DNA from: Chloroflexota bacterium
GTDB lineage: Bacteria > Chloroflexota > Anaerolineae > Anaerolineales > Anaerolineaceae
NCBI GenBank assembly: GCA_021848775.1
Contig: JAJZTR010000006.1
Span: forward strand, 1-33,105
DNA length: 33,105 nt
Direction of reading: 5' to 3'
In this document: positions 2-15,764 of the stretch, one piece after another
Numbering within the stretch: position 1 is the first letter of the stretch
How the letters are laid out: each line of letters starts with the position of its first letter
Notes under the pieces: model-generated
Database searches by the model: none
What the model was told of the DNA's origin: nothing
The model's input: the letters and a program-made list of their open reading frames with translations, nothing else
Translations under genes and position numbers: made by a program

Positions 2-634
2 GGGGTACTGCGCCCCAGCCGCGGGCTGGTGGAGGTAGCCGGGCACGAACCGGGCGGGCATATCTGCATTGCTTATGTCCCGCAGCGTTCGCAGGTGGAC
101 TGGAATTTTCCGGCCACCGTAGCCGATGTGGTGATGATGGGTCGCAGCGGCAAACTGGGTCTCATCCGCTGGCCGACCGCCCGCGACTGGCATTTGGTGA
201 ATCAGGCTCTCGTCACCGTCCGCCTGGACGATTTGGCCAACCGCCAGATTCAGGAGCTTTCTGGCGGGCAGCAGCAGCGCATGTTCATCGCCCGGGCGCT
301 GGCTCAGGAGGCCGAGTTGATCCTGATGGATGAACCGCTCACCGGTCTCGACACCCGTGCCCAGGATGAACTGTTCGACATTCTGGAATTGCTGCACGAG
401 CAGGGCGTGACGGTGATGATCGCGCTGCACGATCTGGAAATCGCCAGCCAGCGCTTCGACCGCGTGATGCTGCTCAACCGCCGCCTGGTGGGTCTGGGGC
501 TTGCCGAGGAGGTGTTCAAACCGGAGATTTTACTGGCTGCATACGGCAGCCATTTGCGTCTTTTACCCGGGCGGAACGGCACTCTGGCGCTCGGCGATTC
601 CTGTTGTGACGATGGAGAACACGACCATGATTGA
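2..634 (+). CDS. Metal (Mn/Zn-type) ABC transporter ATP-binding protein, 5'-truncated by window edge
   Basis: ATPase subunit that would power import of a divalent metal (Mn2+, Zn2+ or Fe2+) through the permease encoded next. The frame is already open at base 2 and reads VLRPSRGLVEVAG, so the GTG at 29 given by the ORF track is internal. The Walker A region lies upstream of the window. Visible motifs are the Q-loop block IAYVPQRS followed by WNFPATVADVVMMGR, typical of the MntA/ZnuC/TroB family, the signature LSGGQQQR, Walker B LILMDEP with the D-loop GLD, and the switch His in ALHDLE. The C-terminus is unusual in ending CCDDGEHDHD, a cluster of potential metal ligands. The stop overlaps the permease start by 8 bases, indicating translational coupling. 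Family identity is firm; the metal is not determined. Confidence 0.93.
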   Translation, partial: GVLRPSRGLVEVAGHEPGGHICIAYVPQRSQVDWNFPATVADVVMMGRSGKLGLIRWPTARDWHLVNQALVTVRLDDLANRQIQELSGGQQQRMFIARALAQEAELILMDEPLTGLDTRAQDELFDILELLHEQGVTVMIALHDLEIASQRFDRVMLLNRRLVGLGLAEEVFKPEILLAAYGSHLRLLPGRNGTLALGDSCCDDGEHDHD

Positions 635-1475
635 TGCCCTACTGCAACCCCTGCAATATCCATTCATGCAGCGCGGTTTGGCCGCCGCGGTATTGGTCGG
701 CATCGTCTGCGCTGTGCTGGGCGCTTACGTGGTGCTGCGCGGCATGGCTTTTTTTGGCGATGCGCTGGCGCATGCCATTTTGCCCGGCATTTCGATTGGC
801 TACCTGGTCGGCGGCGGCGCGCGCGAGCCGCTTTTCTGGTGGGCAATGGGCACTGCGGTGGTCAGCGCGCTGGGTATTGGCGCGGTCAGCCGCACCGCCC
901 GCATCAAGGAGGATACCGCCATCGGCATCATCTTTGCCGGCATGTTCGCTCTGGGCATCGCCTTAATCTCGTCGGTGCGCAGTTATACGGTGGACCTGGC
1001 GCATTTCCTGTTTGGCGACGTGTTGGGGGTGGGCGCGAACGACCTGCTGCTGACGGCTATTTTCGGCGGGCTGATTCTGGTAGTGGTGTTTCTCTTCTAT
1101 AAAGAATTCATGATCCTGGCTTTCGACCCGGTCCTGGCGGCCACCCTGCGCCTGCCCGCCCGCCTGCTGGATAACATTTTGATCGTATTGATCGCGGTCG
1201 CCATCGTGGTGTCGCTGCAGACCGTGGGTGTGGCTTTGATGGTCGCCATGCTGGTCACGCCGGCAGCCACCGCCTTCCTGCTCACCCGCCGTCTGTGGAA
1301 AATGATGGTTTTGGGGGCGGTCATCGCCTCCGCTTCAGCCGTGGTCGGATTGTACCTGTCCTATTACATGAATATTGCCTCGGGCGCGGCCATTGTGCTC
1401 ACCTGCACGGCTGTGTTTATTGTGGTGTGGGCTGCCACCGGCATCAACCGCCGCCTGCGTAGATTTGCACGGTAG
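627..1475 (+). CDS. Metal ABC transporter permease (MntB/ZnuB/TroC family)
   Basis: Integral membrane permease of a divalent-metal ABC importer, working with the upstream ATPase and a substrate-binding lipoprotein not in the window. The ATG at 627 (MIDALLQPLQYPFMQRG) is preferred over the track start at 501 because family members begin just before this segment and the overlap with the ATPase stop is a normal coupled arrangement; ATG 612 is a possible alternative. The protein is about 282 residues with roughly eight or nine hydrophobic helices. It carries the family block VLRGMAFFGDALAHAILPG near residue 40 and a C-terminal region with VGVALMVAMLVTPAATA. Metal specificity cannot be read from the permease. 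Confidence 0.93.
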   Translation: MIDALLQPLQYPFMQRGLAAAVLVGIVCAVLGAYVVLRGMAFFGDALAHAILPGISIGYLVGGGAREPLFWWAMGTAVVSALGIGAVSRTARIKEDTAIGIIFAGMFALGIALISSVRSYTVDLAHFLFGDVLGVGANDLLLTAIFGGLILVVVFLFYKEFMILAFDPVLAATLRLPARLLDNILIVLIAVAIVVSLQTVGVALMVAMLVTPAATAFLLTRRLWKMMVLGAVIASASAVVGLYLSYYMNIASGAAIVLTCTAVFIVVWAATGINRRLRRFAR

Positions 1476-1782: not shown

Positions 1783-3060
1783 ATGACGCCGACCAATGAT
1801 GTGCTGGCGGTTATTTTAGGCGGAGGTCGTGGTTCCCGCCTGTTCCCGTTGACCGCGGTCCGTTCCAAGCCAGCCGTACCCATCGCGGGCAAATACCGCC
1901 TGATTGATATCCCGATCAGCAACTGTATCAACTCGGATATTTTCCGCATCGCGGTGCTGACCCAGTTCAACTCGGTTTCTTTGCACCGCCATATCGCCAA
2001 CACCTATCTCTTCGACGCTTTCCACACCGGCTGGGTGCAAATCTGGGCGGCGGAACAGACTGTTTCCAGCGCTGACTGGTATCAGGGCACAGCCGACGCG
2101 GTGCGCAAACAGCTTTTTGAAATCCGCTCCACCCGCACCTCTTATGTGTTGATTCTGGCCGGGGATCATCTGTACACGATGGACTTCAGACCGATGATCG
2201 ATTTTCACATCCAGAATCAAGCCGAAATCACCGTGGCGGTGCAGCCGGTCCCCCGTGACGAAGCCGGTCGTTTTGGCATTCTCAAGCGCGACCAGGAGGG
2301 CCGCCTGATCGATTTTGCCGAAAAACCAAAGGACCCGCAAATATTATCCCGCATGATCTCACAGAGTGATGCCGGGCGGCCTTATCTGGGTTCGATGGGC
2401 ATCTACCTGTTCAACACCGAAACCCTGATCAGCCTGCTCGAAAAAAATATGTCGTTTGACGACTTCGGCGGAGATGTGATTCCGCACGCAATCCAGGTTG
2501 CCAGTGTATTCGGCTACGACTTCACCGGTTTCTGGGAGGACATTGGAACCATCCGTTCGTTCTACGAAACCAATTTGAGGTTAACCACCCCCGATTCGCC
2601 TTTCAATCTTTACGATTCAGAGCACCCGATCTATTCCCACGGACGTTTCCTGCCCGGGTCGATCGTCGAAGATTCTGCCCTTGAAAATGTGCTGCTGGCT
2701 GAAGGCTGCCGCATCCGCAAGGCGGAGATTCGCCATTCGGTCATCGGCGTGCGCAGCATCATCCAGGAGGGTGTGGTCATCCAAGACACCGTGATGATGG
2801 GAGCGGATTATTATTTCAAAGGCAGCCATGGCGAGACGAAATCGGCGGAAGCGGGTTATATCCCCATAGGTGTCGGCAGCGGGACACGTATCAGCGGCGC
2901 GATCATCGACAAGAACGCGCAAATTGGCAAAAATGTCGTCATCCGGCCGTTCCCGCGCGGCACCGACCTCGACCTGCCGTTGGGCGTGGTGCGGGATGGG
3001 ATTGTGGTCGTCGCCAAAAACACCATCATCCCCGATGGAACGGTCATCGCACCCGATTAA
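1783..3060 (+). CDS. glgC: Glucose-1-phosphate adenylyltransferase (ADP-glucose pyrophosphorylase)
   Basis: Makes ADP-glucose from ATP and glucose-1-phosphate, the committed step of bacterial glycogen synthesis, in the cytoplasm. The 425-residue length is typical. The N-terminal nucleotidyltransferase domain starts with LGGGRGSRLFPLT, followed by KPAVPIAGKYRLID. The segment WYQGTADAVRK, the sugar-phosphate region FAEKPKDP, and GSMGIYLFN and WEDIGTI are all as in GlgC. The C-terminal part (about residues 290-425) is a left-handed beta-helix of hexapeptide repeats, normally the allosteric and oligomerisation domain. The start is supported by AAGGAG seven bases upstream. No other glycogen gene is in the window, so it appears to stand alone. 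Confidence 0.96.
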   Translation: MTPTNDVLAVILGGGRGSRLFPLTAVRSKPAVPIAGKYRLIDIPISNCINSDIFRIAVLTQFNSVSLHRHIANTYLFDAFHTGWVQIWAAEQTVSSADWYQGTADAVRKQLFEIRSTRTSYVLILAGDHLYTMDFRPMIDFHIQNQAEITVAVQPVPRDEAGRFGILKRDQEGRLIDFAEKPKDPQILSRMISQSDAGRPYLGSMGIYLFNTETLISLLEKNMSFDDFGGDVIPHAIQVASVFGYDFTGFWEDIGTIRSFYETNLRLTTPDSPFNLYDSEHPIYSHGRFLPGSIVEDSALENVLLAEGCRIRKAEIRHSVIGVRSIIQEGVVIQDTVMMGADYYFKGSHGETKSAEAGYIPIGVGSGTRISGAIIDKNAQIGKNVVIRPFPRGTDLDLPLGVVRDGIVVVAKNTIIPDGTVIAPD

Positions 3061-3161
3061 CACCCGTGATTCGCTGATCGCATAGCCGCCGCTACATCCG
3101 TAAGATCCTATTGATTTAATTCCAGTCCATCAAAGCCAACAATAATTAATTTGGAGACTGT

Positions 3162-6023
3162 ATGACTGAACAGAAAGAGATGCCTCAAAATCCTTCCATC
3201 AACCTGGATGTGACCGTTACATGGCATTCGCTGCCCCAGCAGGATGTCCTTTCCCGTCTGGATTCTCAGCAATCCAGCGGCCTGACCTCAGAAGAGGCGG
3301 CCCTCCGCCTGGCAGCCTTCGGCCCGAATGAGTTGGAAGAACCTCCACGCACCACCTTTTTGCAGATGGTTTTACGGCAGCTCAACGATTTTGTGGTTAT
3401 CTTGTTGATCATTGCGGCCATCATTTCGACCGTCATCTCCGCTGTTGAGCATGAACCTTACATCGAATCGATTGCGATTATGGCGATCGTCATCTTGAAT
3501 GCGGTGCTGGGAGTGGTGCAGGAAAGCCGGGCCGAACAAGCCCTGGCTGCCTTGAAAAAGCTTTCCGCGCCGGACGCGCATGTGCTGCGCGACGGTCACC
3601 GCATTACCGTGCCCACCCGCGACCTGGTGCCGGGTGATATCGTGTTCCTTGAGTCGGGCAACTACATTCCCGCAGATTTACGCTTGCTGGATGCGGTCAA
3701 CCTGCGGGTCGAGGAAGCTGCCCTAACCGGGGAATCGGTGCCGGTGGAGAAAAATGCGGCGGCGGTTCTGAACCAGGACAGCACAATCGGCGACCGCAAA
3801 AATACCGCCTTTATGGGTACCCTGGTGGCCTACGGCCGCGGCCGCGGGGTGGTAGTTTCCACCGGGATGCACACGCAATTGGGCATGATAGCCACCATGC
3901 TGCAGTCGGTTGAGATGGAAGAGACGCCCCTGCAGCGGCGCTTGCAGCAGCTGGGTAAAACCCTTGGTTATGCTGCCCTGGTCATCTGCTTGATTGTTTT
4001 CCTGGCGGGCATCATCCAGGGTGGCAGCGTCCTGGAAATGTTCATGGTCTCCGTCAGTTTGGCCATAGCGGCAGTGCCCGAAGGGCTGCCCGCCATTGTA
4101 ACCATCGCGCTGGCGCTGGGGATGCGCGAGATGGTCAAACGCCATGCGCTGATCCGCCGCCTTTCATCGGTGGAAACGCTGGGATCCGCCACGGTCATCT
4201 GCTCGGATAAAACCGGCACCCTGACGCAAAATGTGATGACCGTCACCCGGCTGTGGGTGGACGGGCAGGACATTGAAATAACCGGTACGGGTTCTTCCGC
4301 CGAAGGTGAGTTCCTGCTGGATGGCAAGACGGTCGATATCACCAAATATCCGGCTGTCCGGACGGCGTTGTGGGTGGGGGCATTAAATAATGACGCTGAA
4401 TTGGAGCGCCTCGATGGCGACGATGGTCAGTCAGGCTATCGAATCGTGGGCGACCCGACCGAAGGGTCGATATTGATCGCGGCGGCGAAAGCGGGTTCGC
4501 TTCCTGATCAGCTTAACCAGGCTTTTCCGCGCGAACGCGAAATCCCTTTCGATTCTGAGCGCAAGCGCATGGTCACCGTACATGGGATTAAAGCTGCCCG
4601 GCAAGAAGACCCTTCGCCGTTCGATGGCAACGGCACAGCAAAATATGCCGTGGTGGTTAAAGGCGCGCCCGATATTGTGCTCAAGCTTTGTTCCGATTAT
4701 CAGACTGCCGCCGATACCCCGGCTCCGCTGAATGATGACCACCGCAGCCGCATCCTTGACGCAAACGATCGTATGACCCAGGATGCGCTGCGTGTTTTGG
4801 GTGTTGCTTACCGCGTGGTCAATGACGAGCCTGAGAAACTGGCAGCCGATCAGATGGAATCCGATCTGATTTTTGTGGGGTTGATTGGCATGATCGATCC
4901 GGCCCGCCCGGAGGTTCGACCGGCGTTGGAAAAAGCCGCTCGGGCCGGCATTCGCACCATCATGATCACGGGCGATTACCCCAATACGGCCCGCGCGATT
5001 GCAGAATCCATTCACCTTCTGCGTCCGGGGCACCAGGTGCTTTCCGGCGCGCAGCTCGATGAAATGGACGATGCTGCCTTGAATAAAGCCGTAGAGCATA
5101 CCGATGTATTCGCCCGAGTTTCTCCGGAGCATAAGATGCGCATTGTGGACGCGCTCAAAGCCAACGGAGAGGTGGTGGCGATGACCGGCGACGGCGTCAA
5201 CGATGCGCCGGCGATCAAACGCGCCGATATTGGTGTTGCCATGGGCATCACCGGCACCGATGTGGCAAAAGGCACCGCGGATATGGTGCTGACCGACGAC
5301 AACTACGCCAGCATCGTCTCGGCGGTCGAGCAGGGACGCATCATCTACGCCAACATCCGCAAGTTCGTGTATTACCTGATATCCTGCAACCTGGCGGAAA
5401 TCCTGATCATTTTCCTGCCAACCGCCTTTGGCCGTCTGATGTTCCCCAATGCTGAAAGGACGGTGCTCTCGCCGCTGGCGCCTATTCAATTGCTGTGGTT
5501 GAACCTGATCACCGACGGCGCCCCGGCGCTGGCATTGGGCACGGAGGTCGGTGACCCGGACACCATGGAACAGCAGCCGCGTCCTCCGAAAGAACCTATT
5601 ATCAATTCGTCGATGCGGCTGGGAGTGGCCATTCAAACCGTGGCCATCACAGCGGTGACCCTGACGGCTTATGCCATCGGCTTGAGCCACAACGAACTCT
5701 ACGCCGAGACCATGGCCTTTCTGACCCTGTCCCTTTCAGAACTTTTACGCGCCTTTACAGCCCGCTCTGAAAACTATCCGCTGCTGAAGATCGGCGTTTT
5801 CACCAACAAATGGATGAACTGGGCGGTGTTGTTCTCCTTTGTCCTGCTCATGCTGGTGGTTTATGTGCCAGTATTAAATCCGATTTTCAACACCGTTCCA
5901 TTGACCTGGACGGAATGGCGCTTTATCCTGCCATTGTTGATGATCCCCTCGCTGGCAGCCGAGTTGGGCAAGGAAATTACTCACCGGAAGGCGCTGCGCC
6001 GCCAAGCCGAGAGTCTGAGTTAA
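3162..6023 (+). CDS. P2A-type calcium-transporting ATPase
   Basis: Membrane pump that exports Ca2+ (possibly Mn2+) using ATP. At 953 residues it is a normal length. It has TGES near residues 189-192 (actuator), PEGLP near 306-310 in helix M4, the phosphorylation motif CSDKTGTLT with Asp about 349, the KGAPD nucleotide-binding segment, MITGD, and the hinge TGDGVNDAP with Asp about 677. Residues lining the SERCA calcium sites appear kept: Asn and Glu in M5 (SCNLAE, about 743 and 746), Asn, Thr and Asp in M6 (NLITDG, about 781-785), and Glu in M8 (SLSELLRAF, about 860). That is compatible with two ions per cycle, unlike single-site PMCA-type pumps. GGAGA precedes the ATG. The residue mapping is by eye and therefore inference. 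Confidence 0.95.
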   Translation: MTEQKEMPQNPSINLDVTVTWHSLPQQDVLSRLDSQQSSGLTSEEAALRLAAFGPNELEEPPRTTFLQMVLRQLNDFVVILLIIAAIISTVISAVEHEPYIESIAIMAIVILNAVLGVVQESRAEQALAALKKLSAPDAHVLRDGHRITVPTRDLVPGDIVFLESGNYIPADLRLLDAVNLRVEEAALTGESVPVEKNAAAVLNQDSTIGDRKNTAFMGTLVAYGRGRGVVVSTGMHTQLGMIATMLQSVEMEETPLQRRLQQLGKTLGYAALVICLIVFLAGIIQGGSVLEMFMVSVSLAIAAVPEGLPAIVTIALALGMREMVKRHALIRRLSSVETLGSATVICSDKTGTLTQNVMTVTRLWVDGQDIEITGTGSSAEGEFLLDGKTVDITKYPAVRTALWVGALNNDAELERLDGDDGQSGYRIVGDPTEGSILIAAAKAGSLPDQLNQAFPREREIPFDSERKRMVTVHGIKAARQEDPSPFDGNGTAKYAVVVKGAPDIVLKLCSDYQTAADTPAPLNDDHRSRILDANDRMTQDALRVLGVAYRVVNDEPEKLAADQMESDLIFVGLIGMIDPARPEVRPALEKAARAGIRTIMITGDYPNTARAIAESIHLLRPGHQVLSGAQLDEMDDAALNKAVEHTDVFARVSPEHKMRIVDALKANGEVVAMTGDGVNDAPAIKRADIGVAMGITGTDVAKGTADMVLTDDNYASIVSAVEQGRIIYANIRKFVYYLISCNLAEILIIFLPTAFGRLMFPNAERTVLSPLAPIQLLWLNLITDGAPALALGTEVGDPDTMEQQPRPPKEPIINSSMRLGVAIQTVAITAVTLTAYAIGLSHNELYAETMAFLTLSLSELLRAFTARSENYPLLKIGVFTNKWMNWAVLFSFVLLMLVVYVPVLNPIFNTVPLTWTEWRFILPLLMIPSLAAELGKEITHRKALRRQAESLS

Positions 6024-9044: not shown

Positions 9045-10235
9045 TTAGTCGTCACCATCGTGGTCGTTATCTTCGTTGTCATCGTCGTCATAACCACCAT
9101 GACCATTGTCTTGATCATCATCATGGTGATCATCATGGTCATCATCATGGTCATCGTCATGATCATCATACTGACCGTCGTTCTGATCATCATACTGATC
9201 GTCGTCCTGATCATCATCTCGATCATCGTCGACGTCATCGTCATGATCTTCAAGTTCAATTTCATGCGCCAAATAGGTGCCATCATTTTGAACGAATGCT
9301 TCGATCTTAACCACGTCACCTACGACCGGGCTGCCTTCGATTTTTGTCGAGGTATCAATAATGAAGCTCATCCCGCCAATTACCCACAGGGTATCCGAGA
9401 TGGATTCAACCTGACCGGTGAATTTAAACTCCTCATCATCGTCATCATCTTTGTCATCCTCAGATTCCTTGGAGGGATCGACCGCAAGTTTGATCTCATG
9501 GGCCAGGTAGGTGCCATCAGCGTTGAGGAGACCCTCTACTTTTACCAGGTCGCCAACAGCCAGCATGCCTTTGATTTCAGTGGTCGCATCCGTATTGACG
9601 GTTTTTCCACTGATCACCAAAACACTGCCGGTGATGGAATCAATTGTGCCAAAGAATTCAATCTTTGTGCCGCCGGGTGCTGAAATATCGCCTTTGAGCT
9701 GGATTTTTTCAGCCACCATCATTCCAGCTTCAATGTAACCTTCGACTTCAACCAGCGAGCCGACAGCGATTCCTGAATCGATCATCGCCATATCGACGCT
9801 GACCTGTTCGCCTGATACAGTCCACTGGCTGGCATCCATGGCTTCAACGATTCCATAGAACTCGAACTTTGAAGCGGAAACCATCGAATCCATTTTTTCG
9901 ATTTTCAGCGCGTAGCGGGTTAAATCAGGCAGAAGCATCGCTTTCACCTTCACGCTGTCGCCAACTGCGGGTGTACCACTGGTGTCCGTCAGTGTGTCAT
10001 ACCGAAAGTCAATGCCGCTCACGGTATAGGTGTCCGCCTGGACGGATTCCACCACACCCTTGAATTCAATCACACCAAGCTCAGGAGCATCGACTTTCTC
10101 CAGCCCGGGAATGTAGGACATAGGGTTTGAGAAAGCTGCCTGGGCTTTTTTCGCTGTGTAACCGGAGAAAGCCATTACGGCTGCCACAGCAATCAGCGAA
10201 GCTGTCATGATTAATAAAAATTTTCCGCGTTTCAT
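9045..10235 (-). CDS. Secreted DUF5666-repeat protein with a long Asp/His-rich C-terminal tail
   Basis: Exported 396-residue protein of unknown function. A signal peptide (about 1-33, ending near KKAQAAF) is followed by four repeats of about 70 residues. Each opens with a variant of EFxGxVESI and contains VGDxVKVEG and an AxxIxL ending: EFKGVVESV, EFYGIVEAM, EFFGTIDSI and KFTGQVESI. These match the small beta-barrel pattern of DUF5666. Repeats 3 and 4 are separated by an acidic linker (ESEDDKDDDDDEE). The last ~70 residues are almost only Asp and His with some Gln, Asn and Gly, a strong candidate for binding Ca2+ or transition metals outside the cell. AAGGAG lies 6 bases before the ATG. It sits upstream of, and on the same strand as, the sigma/DUF5667 pair, whose product also has DUF5666-like parts. 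Confidence 0.85.
   Translation of the reverse strand: MKRGKFLLIMTASLIAVAAVMAFSGYTAKKAQAAFSNPMSYIPGLEKVDAPELGVIEFKGVVESVQADTYTVSGIDFRYDTLTDTSGTPAVGDSVKVKAMLLPDLTRYALKIEKMDSMVSASKFEFYGIVEAMDASQWTVSGEQVSVDMAMIDSGIAVGSLVEVEGYIEAGMMVAEKIQLKGDISAPGGTKIEFFGTIDSITGSVLVISGKTVNTDATTEIKGMLAVGDLVKVEGLLNADGTYLAHEIKLAVDPSKESEDDKDDDDDEEFKFTGQVESISDTLWVIGGMSFIIDTSTKIEGSPVVGDVVKIEAFVQNDGTYLAHEIELEDHDDDVDDDRDDDQDDDQYDDQNDGQYDDHDDDHDDDHDDHHDDDQDNGHGGYDDDDNEDNDHDGDD
9048..9260 (-). repeat. Low-complexity GAT/GAC/CAT codon tract encoding the Asp/His tail
   Basis: On the plus strand this reads as degenerate ATCATC/GTCATC trinucleotide units. It is simple-sequence DNA prone to length change by slippage, always in multiples of three. 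Its antisense is an open Ile/Val-rich frame in the track, an artefact of the repeat. Confidence 0.8.
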
Positions 10236-12760: not shown

Positions 12761-12788
12761 TTGACAAAGTCTATCTAATTACTATAAT
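12761..12788 (+). promoter_or_regulatory. Near-perfect sigma-70 promoter of the DtxR-MCO-ZIP operon
   Basis: TTGACA (12761-12766) and TATAAT (12783-12788), both consensus, are 16 bases apart. This is the strongest-looking promoter in the window. Such strength with overlapping half-sites suggests that expression is limited by repression. Confidence 0.8.
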
Positions 12789-12804
12789 ATTAGCATACCC
12801 TAAT
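12775..12804 (+). promoter_or_regulatory. Putative DtxR/MntR operator: three CTAAT/ATTAG half-sites over the -10 and start site
   Basis: CTAAT (12775-12779), ATTAG (12789-12793) and CTAAT (12800-12804) alternate in orientation. They give CTAAT-N9-ATTAG across the -10 and ATTAG-N6-CTAAT across the expected transcript start. TTAG/CTAA-type inverted repeats are the core of known DtxR/IdeR boxes. The regulator gene begins 14 bases downstream, so autoregulation is likely. Confidence 0.55.
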
Positions 12805-12818
12805 TAAGGATTTAGTGT

Positions 12819-13490
12819 ATGTTAACTTCTTCGGTTGAAAATTACCTTAAGACCATCTACAGCCTGCAGCAGGAAACGGGTTGGGCTAGTACTTCCGCCA
12901 TCGCCGAAATTATGGAGGTTGCCAATCCATCGGTGACCATGATGCTCAAACGCATGGCAGCCATGGACCCGGCGCTGATCACGTATGTCCCCTATGAGGG
13001 TGCCAAACTGACACCCGGCGGCGAAAGACAGGCGCTGGATGTGATCCGGGTGCACCGCCTGATGGAAACTTTTCTGGTGAAGGCGCTGGGTTACACCTGG
13101 GATGAAGTCCATGAAGATGCCGAACGCTTGGAACATGCCAGCTCGCCGCGGCTGATCGAGCGGATGGCTTCATTTCTCGGCGACCCAGCGCGCGACCCGC
13201 ACGGCGAAGACATCCCCGACCGCAACGGCAAACTGCCGCAGCGCAGCGAAACACCTTTGACCCAGCTCGACCCGGGTCAAAGCGGGCGGATTGTCCGTGT
13301 CGCTGCTGACAAACCCGACATCCTGCGGTATCTGGACGAAATTGGCCTGACCTTGGATGTCACGGTCGAAGTATTGGAAAAAGCGCCTTTCTCCGGGCCT
13401 GTCACCATCAAAAACCCCCAACCGGGCAGCGCTGCCCGCGCCCTTGGCCGCGAGGTAACCAACCGAATCTACGTCGAAGCCTCTGATTAA
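12819..13490 (+). CDS. DtxR/MntR-family metal-dependent transcriptional regulator
   Basis: Cytoplasmic metal-sensing repressor of 223 residues. The N-terminal winged helix (VENYLKTIYSLQQETGWASTSAIAEIMEVANPSVTMMLKRM) is followed by the metal-binding and dimerisation helices (VIRVHRLMETFLVKALGYTWDEVHEDAERLEH). That region contains the His, Glu and Asp positions typical of DtxR/MntR. The C-terminal ~80 residues (LTQLDPGQSGRIVRVAADKPDILRYLDEIGL) form an FeoA/SH3-like domain, as in IdeR and DtxR but not in short MntR. AAGGA lies 8 bases before the ATG. It leads an operon with the multicopper oxidase and ZIP genes, which are probably its targets. Fe2+ or Mn2+ is the expected co-repressor; the sequence does not decide which. 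Confidence 0.93.
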   Translation: MLTSSVENYLKTIYSLQQETGWASTSAIAEIMEVANPSVTMMLKRMAAMDPALITYVPYEGAKLTPGGERQALDVIRVHRLMETFLVKALGYTWDEVHEDAERLEHASSPRLIERMASFLGDPARDPHGEDIPDRNGKLPQRSETPLTQLDPGQSGRIVRVAADKPDILRYLDEIGLTLDVTVEVLEKAPFSGPVTIKNPQPGSAARALGREVTNRIYVEASD

Positions 13491-13508
13491 CGGTAACAGG
13501 AGGAATCT

Positions 13509-14513
13509 ATGATTTCCAGAAGGAATTTTATTAAATCGCTAGGTGTGACCCTCGGACTGGTAGGTGCAGCCAGCCTGCTGCCCCATCCGGCTACCAGCGC
13601 GCATGACACGAGTCGCGCGTCAATGGGTATGGATCAGCCGGGCGGTCATGCCGATTTGAGCGGCACTGTAGGTGAAACCGATTTGTCGTTGTTCGACCCG
13701 AGCGCCTTCATGACCCGGTTCGATATGGGCACGGTCAGCCAGACCAGCAGCGGGCGTACCCTGCGCGAGTATGCCGTCACGGCGCTTGATCAGGAAATCG
13801 AAATTGCTCCCGGGGTGTGGTTCCCGGCCTGGACCTACAACGGCCAGGTACCCGGTCCCACGTTTCGCTGCACTGAAGGGGATCTGCTGCGATTTCATTT
13901 CAGCAACGGCTCCACCCACCCGCACACCATCCATTTCCACGGTAATCACCCGCCGGGCATGGACGGGGTGTCGCCGATCATTAATCCCGGTGAGAGTTTC
14001 ACCTATGAGTTCGAAGCGCGCCCCTTTGGGCTGCACCTGTATCACTGTCATGTGATGCCATTAAAAAAACATATTCACCGCGGGCTTTACGGCACCTTCA
14101 TCATCGATCCCCCTGGCGGGCGGTCGCCGGCGCACGAACTGGTGATGGTGATGAACGCCTTCGACACCAACTTCGACAACGAAAACGAGGTATATGCCGT
14201 CAACACGGTGGCATTCCATTACTCGCGGCATCCGGTTCAGGTGCGGGTTGGCGAACTCATCCGGGTGTACCTCACCAACCTGACCGAGTTTGATCTGATC
14301 AATTCATTTCACCTGCACGCCGCCATGTTCCGGTTGTTCCGCACCGGCACCAACCTCGAAAACTACGAGTTGACCGATAACGTCATCATGGGGCAGGGCG
14401 AACGCCACATCCTTGAATTCACCCTGGATTACCCCGGACAGTATATGTTCCATGCCCACCAGTCGGAATTTGCCGAGCTGGGGTGGATGGGGTTGTTCGA
14501 GGCGGTGGCGTAG
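13509..14513 (+). CDS. Tat-exported two-domain multicopper oxidase
   Basis: Extracytoplasmic copper oxidase of 334 residues, likely a metal oxidase given its neighbours. SRRNFIKSLG followed by a hydrophobic stretch is a twin-arginine signal. Domain 1 carries HTIHFHG (about 139-145) and HLYHCHVMPLKKHIHRGL (about 176-193). Domain 2 carries FHLHAAMF (about 267-274) and MFHAHQSEF (about 313-321). Together these supply four HxH pairs, the full eight His for a trinuclear cluster between subunits. Only domain 1 has the type 1 Cys (C180), as in type C two-domain enzymes; the domain 2 equivalent is Ala316. By alignment with nitrite reductases the axial type 1 position is Leu193 rather than Met. AGGAGG precedes the ATG, 18 bases after the regulator stop. 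A nitrite reductase is less likely because the HCH pattern is laccase-like. Confidence 0.9.
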   Translation: MISRRNFIKSLGVTLGLVGAASLLPHPATSAHDTSRASMGMDQPGGHADLSGTVGETDLSLFDPSAFMTRFDMGTVSQTSSGRTLREYAVTALDQEIEIAPGVWFPAWTYNGQVPGPTFRCTEGDLLRFHFSNGSTHPHTIHFHGNHPPGMDGVSPIINPGESFTYEFEARPFGLHLYHCHVMPLKKHIHRGLYGTFIIDPPGGRSPAHELVMVMNAFDTNFDNENEVYAVNTVAFHYSRHPVQVRVGELIRVYLTNLTEFDLINSFHLHAAMFRLFRTGTNLENYELTDNVIMGQGERHILEFTLDYPGQYMFHAHQSEFAELGWMGLFEAVA

Positions 14514-14522
14514 GAGAAACCC

Positions 14523-15764
14523 ATGGACATGGACAAATCAACTTCCCGTTTAACCTGGCGCATGCCTTCCTGGCTGCTCTCGTTATTTCCGCTGGTTCTT
14601 CTGGGGCTGCTGGCATGGGTCTTCAGCCTGACCAACCCCCTGGGGTTGTTCACCGCCAATGTGCCGCCCATCGAGCAGATATCGGTCGAGCGGGTGCTGG
14701 TCACACAGGACGGATTCGATCTGCAGCTGCTTAACTCCGGTCCGGAACCGGTAAAAATATCCCAGGTGATGGTGGACGATGCTTACTGGCAATTTACTCA
14801 GGATCCTCCCGGTTCGCTGCCGCGGCTGGGGCGCGCCACCTTATCCATCCCCTATCAGTGGGTCGAAAACGACTTGTACAACATTCGCTTGATTTCCTCG
14901 ACGGGATTGACCTTCGATGCCCAGGTACCCATCGCCACCCAGACGCCTGTTCCGGGCGGGCGGGAATTCCTAGCCTACGGTCTGCTGGGCGTCTACATCG
15001 GTATCATCCCGGTGGGCATTGGCCTGCTGTGGTACCCTGCCATGAGGCGCATGGACCAGCGCTGGCTTGGCGCCATCCTGGCGCTGACGGTCGGACTGCT
15101 GGTTTTCCTGCTGGTTGATACGCTGCTGGAGGTAATCGAAATCGGATCGACCCTGCCGGGCGTGTTCCAGGGTGTGCCGCTGGCATTGTTCGCGGCGCTC
15201 ATTTCCTGGCTGGGAATCGTAGCTCTGAGCTCGCTGCGTAAAAAAGGCAGTTCGCAGGCAAAAGCGCGGAGCCGATTTTCACTGGCATTCCTCATCGCCG
15301 CCAGCATTGGGCTGCATAACCTGGGCGAGGGGCTGTCGGTAGGAGCGGCTTTTTCCCTTGGCGAAGCAGCGCTCGGCACCTTCCTGGTAGTCGGGTTCAT
15401 CCTGCACAATGTCACCGAAGGCATTGGCATCGCGGCCCCGCTGCTGCCTGCCAACACATCCGAGGCAGATAACACAGAGCGGTCAACCCCAGGTCTGGGT
15501 TCCTTTCTTTTGCTGCTGCTGGTTTCAGGCGGGCCGGCCATTTTGGGAGCCTGGCTGGGCGGTTTTGCCTATTCGCCGGTGCTAAGCACGCTTTTTCTTG
15601 GCATCGGCTTAGGCGCCATCTGGCAGGTGATTGTGGAAGTCGTCGGGCTGCTGCGTCGTTCAGCTGCCGCCGCGAAGTCATCCTGGGTGAACGCGCTCAA
15701 CCTGGGCGGGTTTACAAGCGGGATTGCCATTATGTATCTGACGGCGTTCCTGGTCAAATTCTAG
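14523..15764 (+). CDS. ZIP-family metal transporter with an extracytoplasmic N-terminal domain
   Basis: Membrane transporter of 413 residues, probably importing Fe2+, Mn2+ or Zn2+. One N-terminal helix (about 15-35) is followed by ~110 residues without membrane segments (about 40-145), a beta-rich outer domain uncommon in bacterial ZIPs. The ZIP core begins near 148. The binding helices are GLHNLGEGLSVG (H265, E269) and ILHNVTEGIGIAAPL (H295, E299), the paired H-x3-E metal sites of the family. The cytosolic loop between them and the N-terminal core is short and not His-rich. An AGGAG overlaps the stop of the oxidase gene 7 bases upstream, so translation is coupled to it. The outer domain could accept metal from the oxidase; this is inference. 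Confidence 0.88.
   Translation: MDMDKSTSRLTWRMPSWLLSLFPLVLLGLLAWVFSLTNPLGLFTANVPPIEQISVERVLVTQDGFDLQLLNSGPEPVKISQVMVDDAYWQFTQDPPGSLPRLGRATLSIPYQWVENDLYNIRLISSTGLTFDAQVPIATQTPVPGGREFLAYGLLGVYIGIIPVGIGLLWYPAMRRMDQRWLGAILALTVGLLVFLLVDTLLEVIEIGSTLPGVFQGVPLALFAALISWLGIVALSSLRKKGSSQAKARSRFSLAFLIAASIGLHNLGEGLSVGAAFSLGEAALGTFLVVGFILHNVTEGIGIAAPLLPANTSEADNTERSTPGLGSFLLLLLVSGGPAILGAWLGGFAYSPVLSTLFLGIGLGAIWQVIVEVVGLLRRSAAAAKSSWVNALNLGGFTSGIAIMYLTAFLVKF

Follow-up and report, generated by a model that had tools for sequence, protein, structure and literature searches.

In the bacterial iron uptake systems FtrABCD and EfeUOB, a periplasmic oxidation or cupredoxin step is linked to an iron permease; to our knowledge, these permeases are of the Ftr1 type and neither system includes a two-domain multicopper oxidase (MCO). 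The fungal Fet3-Ftr1 system joins an extracytoplasmic multicopper oxidase to a metal permease under metal-starvation control (PMC12218971, PMC9723733). In ammonia-oxidizing archaea (AOA), the two-domain oxidase MCO1 is encoded beside a ZIP-family permease (NVIE_000600 and NVIE_000590 in N. viennensis), and reports on this pair read it, by analogy with Fet3, as a copper uptake system (PMC7785015, PMC5817080, PMC7819960). Here we analyze an operon of comparable composition in a 33,105-nt stretch (hereafter the window) of contig JAJZTR010000006.1, which belongs to a Chloroflexota genome that is ~92% complete with 5.66% contamination. The operon comprises genes for a DtxR/MntR-family regulator (dtxR), a two-domain MCO (mco) and a ZIP-family permease (zip), and our results place the mco-zip unit in a putative iron/manganese (Fe/Mn) uptake regulon.

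The window unit resembles FtrABCD and EfeUOB in its putative link of an oxidation or cupredoxin step to a permease, and differs from them in the absence of any FTR1-family match. It shares with Fet3-Ftr1 the association of an extracytoplasmic multicopper oxidase with a metal permease, predicted here also to be regulated by metal starvation, but its oxidase is of the two-domain type C, as opposed to the three-domain Fet3, its permease is a ZIP rather than an Ftr1 protein, and any coupling between the two is putative; only ZIP was matched in the window permease, with no FTR1 Pfam match to suggest the Ftr1 (REXXE) family. With the AOA system it has in common a two-domain MCO gene beside a ZIP gene and a Leu at the axial position of the type 1 (T1) copper site, as reported for MCO1 (PMC7785015, PMC5817080, PMC7819960). 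This comparison was made by description, and the accessible parts of those reports differ from the present case in assigning a copper role and in describing neither an Fe/Mn operator nor a DtxR link. The parts and the kind of pair are thus already known, whereas the regulatory placement and the much wider distribution are new. The open-access literature, to which our search was confined (subscription papers lay outside it), yielded no account of a bacterial mco-zip pair or of its Fe/Mn operator.

A palindromic operator, WTTAG-N6-CTAAW, lies within 230 bp around the first gene in 68 of the 102 loci in which it could be tested, as opposed to 5 matches in the 699,125 bp of remaining locus sequence, and its stricter form, TTTAG-N6-CTAAA, occurs exactly once, ahead of mco-zip, in several GC-rich genomes. 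Among 30 chosen genomes, the palindrome precedes feo operons in four, and it was found ahead of feo in further contexts from two other genomes and ahead of an Nramp gene in yet another. An unbiased scan with TTTAGNYTARNCTAAA against 396 genomes of the class returned 56 distinct sites, which comprise ~14 at feo operons, six each at mco-zip, dtxR and ZnuA/TroA-type binding-protein loci and one or two at Nramp genes, the remainder corresponding to unassigned genes or chance; these counts stem from automatically called open reading frames (ORFs) that were matched to profiles, a subset of them being checked against Pfam. At one locus a single operator separates divergent mco-zip and Nramp genes, and a Deinococcus plasmid carries dtxR-Nramp divergent from mco-zip with operators present. 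The palindrome is also found at Deinococcus, Rubrobacter and haloarchaeal plasmid copies, and a different palindrome is seen in two of the three alphaproteobacterial mco-zip copies inspected. As judged from sequence, this distribution of sites shows the mco-zip unit to belong to a predicted Fe/Mn uptake regulon and, since its operator is shared with Fe/Mn importers, the pair is probably an Fe/Mn uptake device rather than one for copper or detoxification.

Other occurrences of the same palindrome point to possible additional members of this regulon: it recurs between rhomboid-like and MacB-like ATP-binding cassette (ABC) genes (four loci), ahead of a PIG-L deacetylase gene (two loci) and ahead of an unassigned 166-aa membrane protein (two loci). 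Three of the five strict palindromes in the source genome were judged to be chance occurrences (one internal to an ORF, one at the start of rplL and one upstream of an unrelated gene). Genome G222 has feoA and a gene for the FeoB G domain (positions 2592-3672 of locus L149) ~1.3 kb upstream of mco-zip; they possess a separate operator and adjoin that of mco-zip. In many genomes of the class (five loci noted), FeoB is encoded in two parts, a G-domain gene of ~280 aa and, after it, a second gene of ~475 aa, and the split form often follows a DtxR-FeoA fusion gene of ~340 aa. Three Thermoactinomycetaceae copies have no palindrome and share a leader hairpin with a U-run just before the ribosome-binding site, an arrangement suggestive of attenuation. 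Inspection of loci devoid of the palindrome for Fur boxes or IdeR boxes of the classical type gave nothing convincing.

A scan for the oxidase over one genome per species returned 80 loci from Chloroflexota, Gemmatimonadota, Acidobacteriota, Poribacteria, Actinomycetota, Bacillota and other phyla, and zip lies directly downstream of mco in 78 of them; one of the two exceptions falls at a contig end and the other has its ZIP gene 1.9 kb away. The same order holds in all 13 plasmid loci inspected, with plasmid copies occurring in Deinococcus, Rhodococcus, Arthrobacter, Rubrobacter, Peribacillus, Sinorhizobium, Sulfitobacter, Shinella, a cyanobacterium and haloarchaea. Of the 80 oxidase loci, 27 include a DtxR gene, which lies mostly upstream and is at times divergent, and among ZIP-anchored loci it is at times found downstream. 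Within the class of the window genome, the oxidase is carried by 38 of 298 genomes, 36 of which also carry the ZIP orthologue, and the distribution is patchy, since the genus and family mates sampled are devoid of the oxidase. MCO and ZIP distances are correlated (r=0.73; 0/999 permutations), a figure to which shared vertical history contributes. Some loci were retrieved by both searches (104 distinct oxidases in 110 loci) and operon membership was assigned by spacing alone. No flanking cluster appeared in more than 10 of the 110 loci, and hence no conserved gene beyond the trio was detected there; scans of viral contigs gave no relative of MCO1, whether archaeal or viral. The adjacency on which the original prediction had staked its reading is thus conserved across phyla; it shows that mco and zip are almost never separated and is a strong indication that their products work jointly.

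Downstream of mco-zip, Actinomycetota and haloarchaea carry genes for small redox proteins of the Rieske (three loci) or plastocyanin (two loci) kind, which are possible electron carriers, and on a Peribacillus plasmid the pair is followed by a private tatA-tatC pair, whose products could act as export helpers.

The window oxidase exceeds the Pfam cut-offs for Cu-oxidase_3 and Cu-oxidase_2 and carries a twin-arginine translocation (Tat) signal (TIGR01409, 20.4 > 16.7 bits). It is of the two-domain type C because its T1 copper ligands (H139, C180 and H188, with axial L193) are confined to domain 1; the HxH/HCH/HxH/HxH trinuclear ligands are present, and domain 2 displays HAH without Cys. Our use of the type C label, the comparison of the axial Leu with that of MCO1 and the expected trimer all draw on established knowledge of two-domain oxidases. 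Across 118 oxidase sequences, H139, C180, H188 and the eight His of the type 2 and type 3 copper sites are invariant, and two glutamates at the would-be T1 position of domain 2 (E320 and E323) are 97-99% conserved. Assignment as a copper nitrite reductase (NirK) was rejected, with the NCBIfam Cu_nitrite_red model reaching 95.8 of the 296.3 bits needed. The nearest solved structures are 7rab and 3gdc. In the case of 3gdc, from Arthrobacter sp. FB24, a ZIP gene follows and a divergent DtxR gene precedes the oxidase gene, much as in the window unit, but the two oxidases are only 51.5% identical; no functional account of the FB24 enzyme was found in the open-access literature.

The Pfam Zip match to the window permease is weak (22.1 versus a cut-off of 35.1 bits, C-terminal part only) and the NCBIfam ZupT model scores 43 bits, under its cut-off. 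The AlphaFold2 model (predicted local distance difference test, 91) consists of an anchor helix (residues 16-37), immunoglobulin (Ig)-like strands (53-135) and eight transmembrane-type helices (146-412). Foldseek relates it to BbZIP (E=2.6e-7), as does profile comparison (E=1.6e-11), and PF02535 is matched by 70 of 71 ZIP relatives at E <= 0.01. The eight-helix fold and the H-N-x-x-E-G motifs in transmembrane helices TM4 and TM5 make it a ZIP transporter akin to BbZIP and ZupT, from which it differs in its extra N-terminal anchor and Ig-like domain. The canonical proline of both motifs (HNxPEG) is replaced, by Gly268 in TM4 and by Thr298 in TM5, which marks the protein as an apparently divergent ZIP, and the position of BbZIP Glu240 in TM6 is not conserved in the alignment. 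The metal ligands (H265, N266, E269, H295, N296 and E299) are conserved, and their divalent type argues against simple Fe(III) transport. The puzzle raised in the original prediction, that of an oxidase set beside a permease for divalent ions, therefore stands. The Ig-like domain, with conserved columns at P49, N71, W113 and F131, weakly resembles the folds of the archaellum stator FlaF/FlaG, the DsbD N-terminal domain and CopC in Foldseek, and may provide the docking face for the oxidase.

The regulator scores over the Pfam cut-offs for PF01325 (61.3 > 26 bits), PF02742 (100.2 > 27) and PF04023 (64.8 > 23), combining the N-terminal DNA-binding and metal-binding/dimerization domains of the DtxR family with a C-terminal FeoA/SH3-like domain. 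Its best NCBIfam model is the MntR equivalog, of which it attains 179.9 of the 350 bits required, and alphaproteobacterial mco-zip copies adjoin a bona fide MntR (239 > 153 bits). Alignment columns put Asn8, His79, Glu83, Glu102, Glu105 and His106 at the metal-site positions; Glu102 is retained, and the metal preference of the repressor may differ because most relatives have Asp at position 8. The co-location of gene and operator suggests that DtxR acts on the palindrome.

The reading that we favor, and deem reasonably probable, is that the operon constitutes an iron/manganese acquisition unit, repressed by its DtxR/MntR-type regulator when metal is sufficient, in which the oxidase is the extracytoplasmic partner of the ZIP. 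With sufficient cytosolic Fe(II) or Mn(II), the metal-loaded repressor would bind the promoter palindrome and silence the whole operon, dtxR included. Starvation under air would lift this block, the oxidase being exported folded by Tat and the ZIP being placed in the membrane so that its Ig-like domain faces outward and probably docks the oxidase, while the ZIP core would import metal (Fe most likely, Mn next). In what is the least certain step, the oxidase, most likely a ferroxidase, might process metal at the outer mouth and either hand it to the ZIP in the manner of Fet3-Ftr1 or control which metal and redox state reaches the ZIP. The role of the oxidase can be framed in three sub-models: hand-off by a ferroxidase, an oxidase that confers selectivity or protection next to an importer of Mn(II)/Fe(II), and uptake tied to Mn oxidation. 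The last of these has a precedent in P. putida GB-1, where Mn oxidation raised intracellular Mn (PMC3798386). The original prediction had wavered between metal uptake and detoxification by a metal-regulated oxidase/ZIP unit; the regulated unit is borne out, and the uptake branch is favored because the palindrome is common to known Fe(II)/Mn(II) importers. The source genome yielded no FeoB-strength match and no Nramp match, together with one FecCD and one ABC-3 permease, and the mco-zip unit could be important there because few other Fe/Mn importers were matched, with the reservation that the genome is only ~92% complete.

Several observations weigh against an Fe/Mn acquisition unit of this kind. 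ZIPs carry divalent ions, which makes any hand-off of Fe(III) conjectural. The strict palindrome was not found in about a third of the loci. The metal imported may be Mn instead of Fe, because the ligands of the regulator are MntR-like and some lineages use MntR. Finally, some plasmid copies sit in metal-resistance islands, and one report describes a modest rise of the N. viennensis archaeal pair under copper limitation (PMC7785015).

The alternative that survives best, unlikely as we consider it, is Mn uptake assisted by a protective or selective oxidase: the ZIP would import Mn(II), and the oxidase would clear Fe(II) or Cu(I) at its mouth, preventing mis-import and Fenton chemistry without any hand-off. 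The MntR-like regulator ligands and true MntR neighbors, the presence of Nramp within the same regulon, the divalent-type ZIP ligands and the P. putida GB-1 precedent (PMC3798386) are all consistent with this explanation, but the commonest regulon members found are feo operons. Markedly less plausible is copper acquisition as proposed for AOA MCO1-ZIP, with the oxidase converting Cu(I) to Cu(II) and the ZIP importing Cu(II). This is a published proposal, backed by the modest increase of MCO1 and the adjacent permease under Cu limitation (PMC7785015), and some plasmid islands feature Cu-rich neighbors, such as CopZ and SCO; on the other hand, the adjacent regulators are of the DtxR/MntR family and the operator is common to Fe/Mn importers. 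Detoxification of excess Fe(II), Mn(II) or Cu(I) by the oxidase, with the ZIP as an incidental neighbor, is very improbable in spite of the P-type ATPase, ArsR, CzcA or CDF neighbors seen in several plasmid copies and at the second copy in the genome, given that a co-repressor-type DtxR/MntR would turn the unit off at metal excess, that the regulon is made of importers and that the ZIP is the most constant partner of the oxidase.

Placement in an Fe/Mn regulon provides a testable function for a pair that is widespread, often on plasmids, and yet annotated just as 'multicopper oxidase domain-containing protein' and 'metal transporter', and it accounts for an oxidase beside a divalent-metal importer under a metal-sensing repressor. 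For archaeal MCO1, it opens an alternative to the copper interpretation. The marine ammonia oxidizer N. maritimus reportedly lacks the known inorganic iron importers, and general ZIPs were suggested in their place (PMC9723733); the pair could account for inorganic iron uptake in such organisms. A bolder and more doubtful possibility is that of a second oxidase-permease uptake system, apart from Fet3-Ftr1, in which a two-domain MCO, probably trimeric, would dock on the Ig-like domain of the ZIP and couple oxidation at the outer face to Fe/Mn import in both Bacteria and Archaea; the copper role ascribed to the AOA pair would then be an Fe/Mn one.

The three genes of the operon are + strand ORFs with intergenic gaps of 18 and 9 bp, and Shine-Dalgarno sequences precede mco (AGGAGG) and zip (AGGAG, overlapping the mco stop). 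The layout given in the original prediction, with closely spaced genes, coupled ribosome-binding sites and one strong promoter, is hence recovered, and its identification of a DtxR regulator, an exported two-domain oxidase and a ZIP agrees with the domains, Tat signal and fold described above. Three features go beyond that prediction: the promoter palindrome, the N-terminal addition to the ZIP (anchor plus Ig-like domain) and another dtxR-mco unit elsewhere in the genome.

Table 1. Predicted features of the dtxR-mco-zip operon (window coordinates).
Feature	Position	Strand	Basis
Sigma-70-type promoter, TTGACA-N16-TATAAT	12761..12788	+	12/12 consensus positions
Operator palindrome ATTAGCATACCCTAAT (WTTAG-N6-CTAAW), abutting the -10 box	12789..12804	.	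Sole window match at <=1 mismatch
dtxR, putative metal-dependent repressor of the DtxR/MntR family, 223 aa	12819..13490	+	Pfam domains, ligand columns
mco, Tat-type two-domain multicopper oxidase, 334 aa	13509..14513	+	Pfam, NCBIfam, structure relatives, copper ligands
zip, ZIP-family permease with N-terminal anchor, Ig-like domain and eight-helix core, 413 aa	14523..15764	+	Fold, profiles
Ig-like domain of ZIP, ~residues 46-135	14658..14927	+	Conserved columns, model strands 53-135

The second dtxR-mco unit (G000:C198:14759-16277, corresponding to 2760-4278 of locus L123) is interrupted by the end of its contig within mco. A separate operator, TTTAGGTCAGGCTAAT, accompanies it, its DtxR has Asp8, and a heavy-metal P-type ATPase-like gene and ArsR lie upstream; given the contamination estimated for the genome it could be either a paralogue or a contaminant. 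In the window itself, the contig opens inside an ABC metal transporter (1-1475, + strand), whose ATPase gene is cut at its 5' end and whose promoter lies off the contig; its ABC-3 (Mn/Zn-type) permease spans 501-1475 (+). Further along, positions 9045-10235 (- strand) encode a protein that looks secreted and has four DUF5666 repeats and a long tail rich in Asp and His, a potential metal binder.

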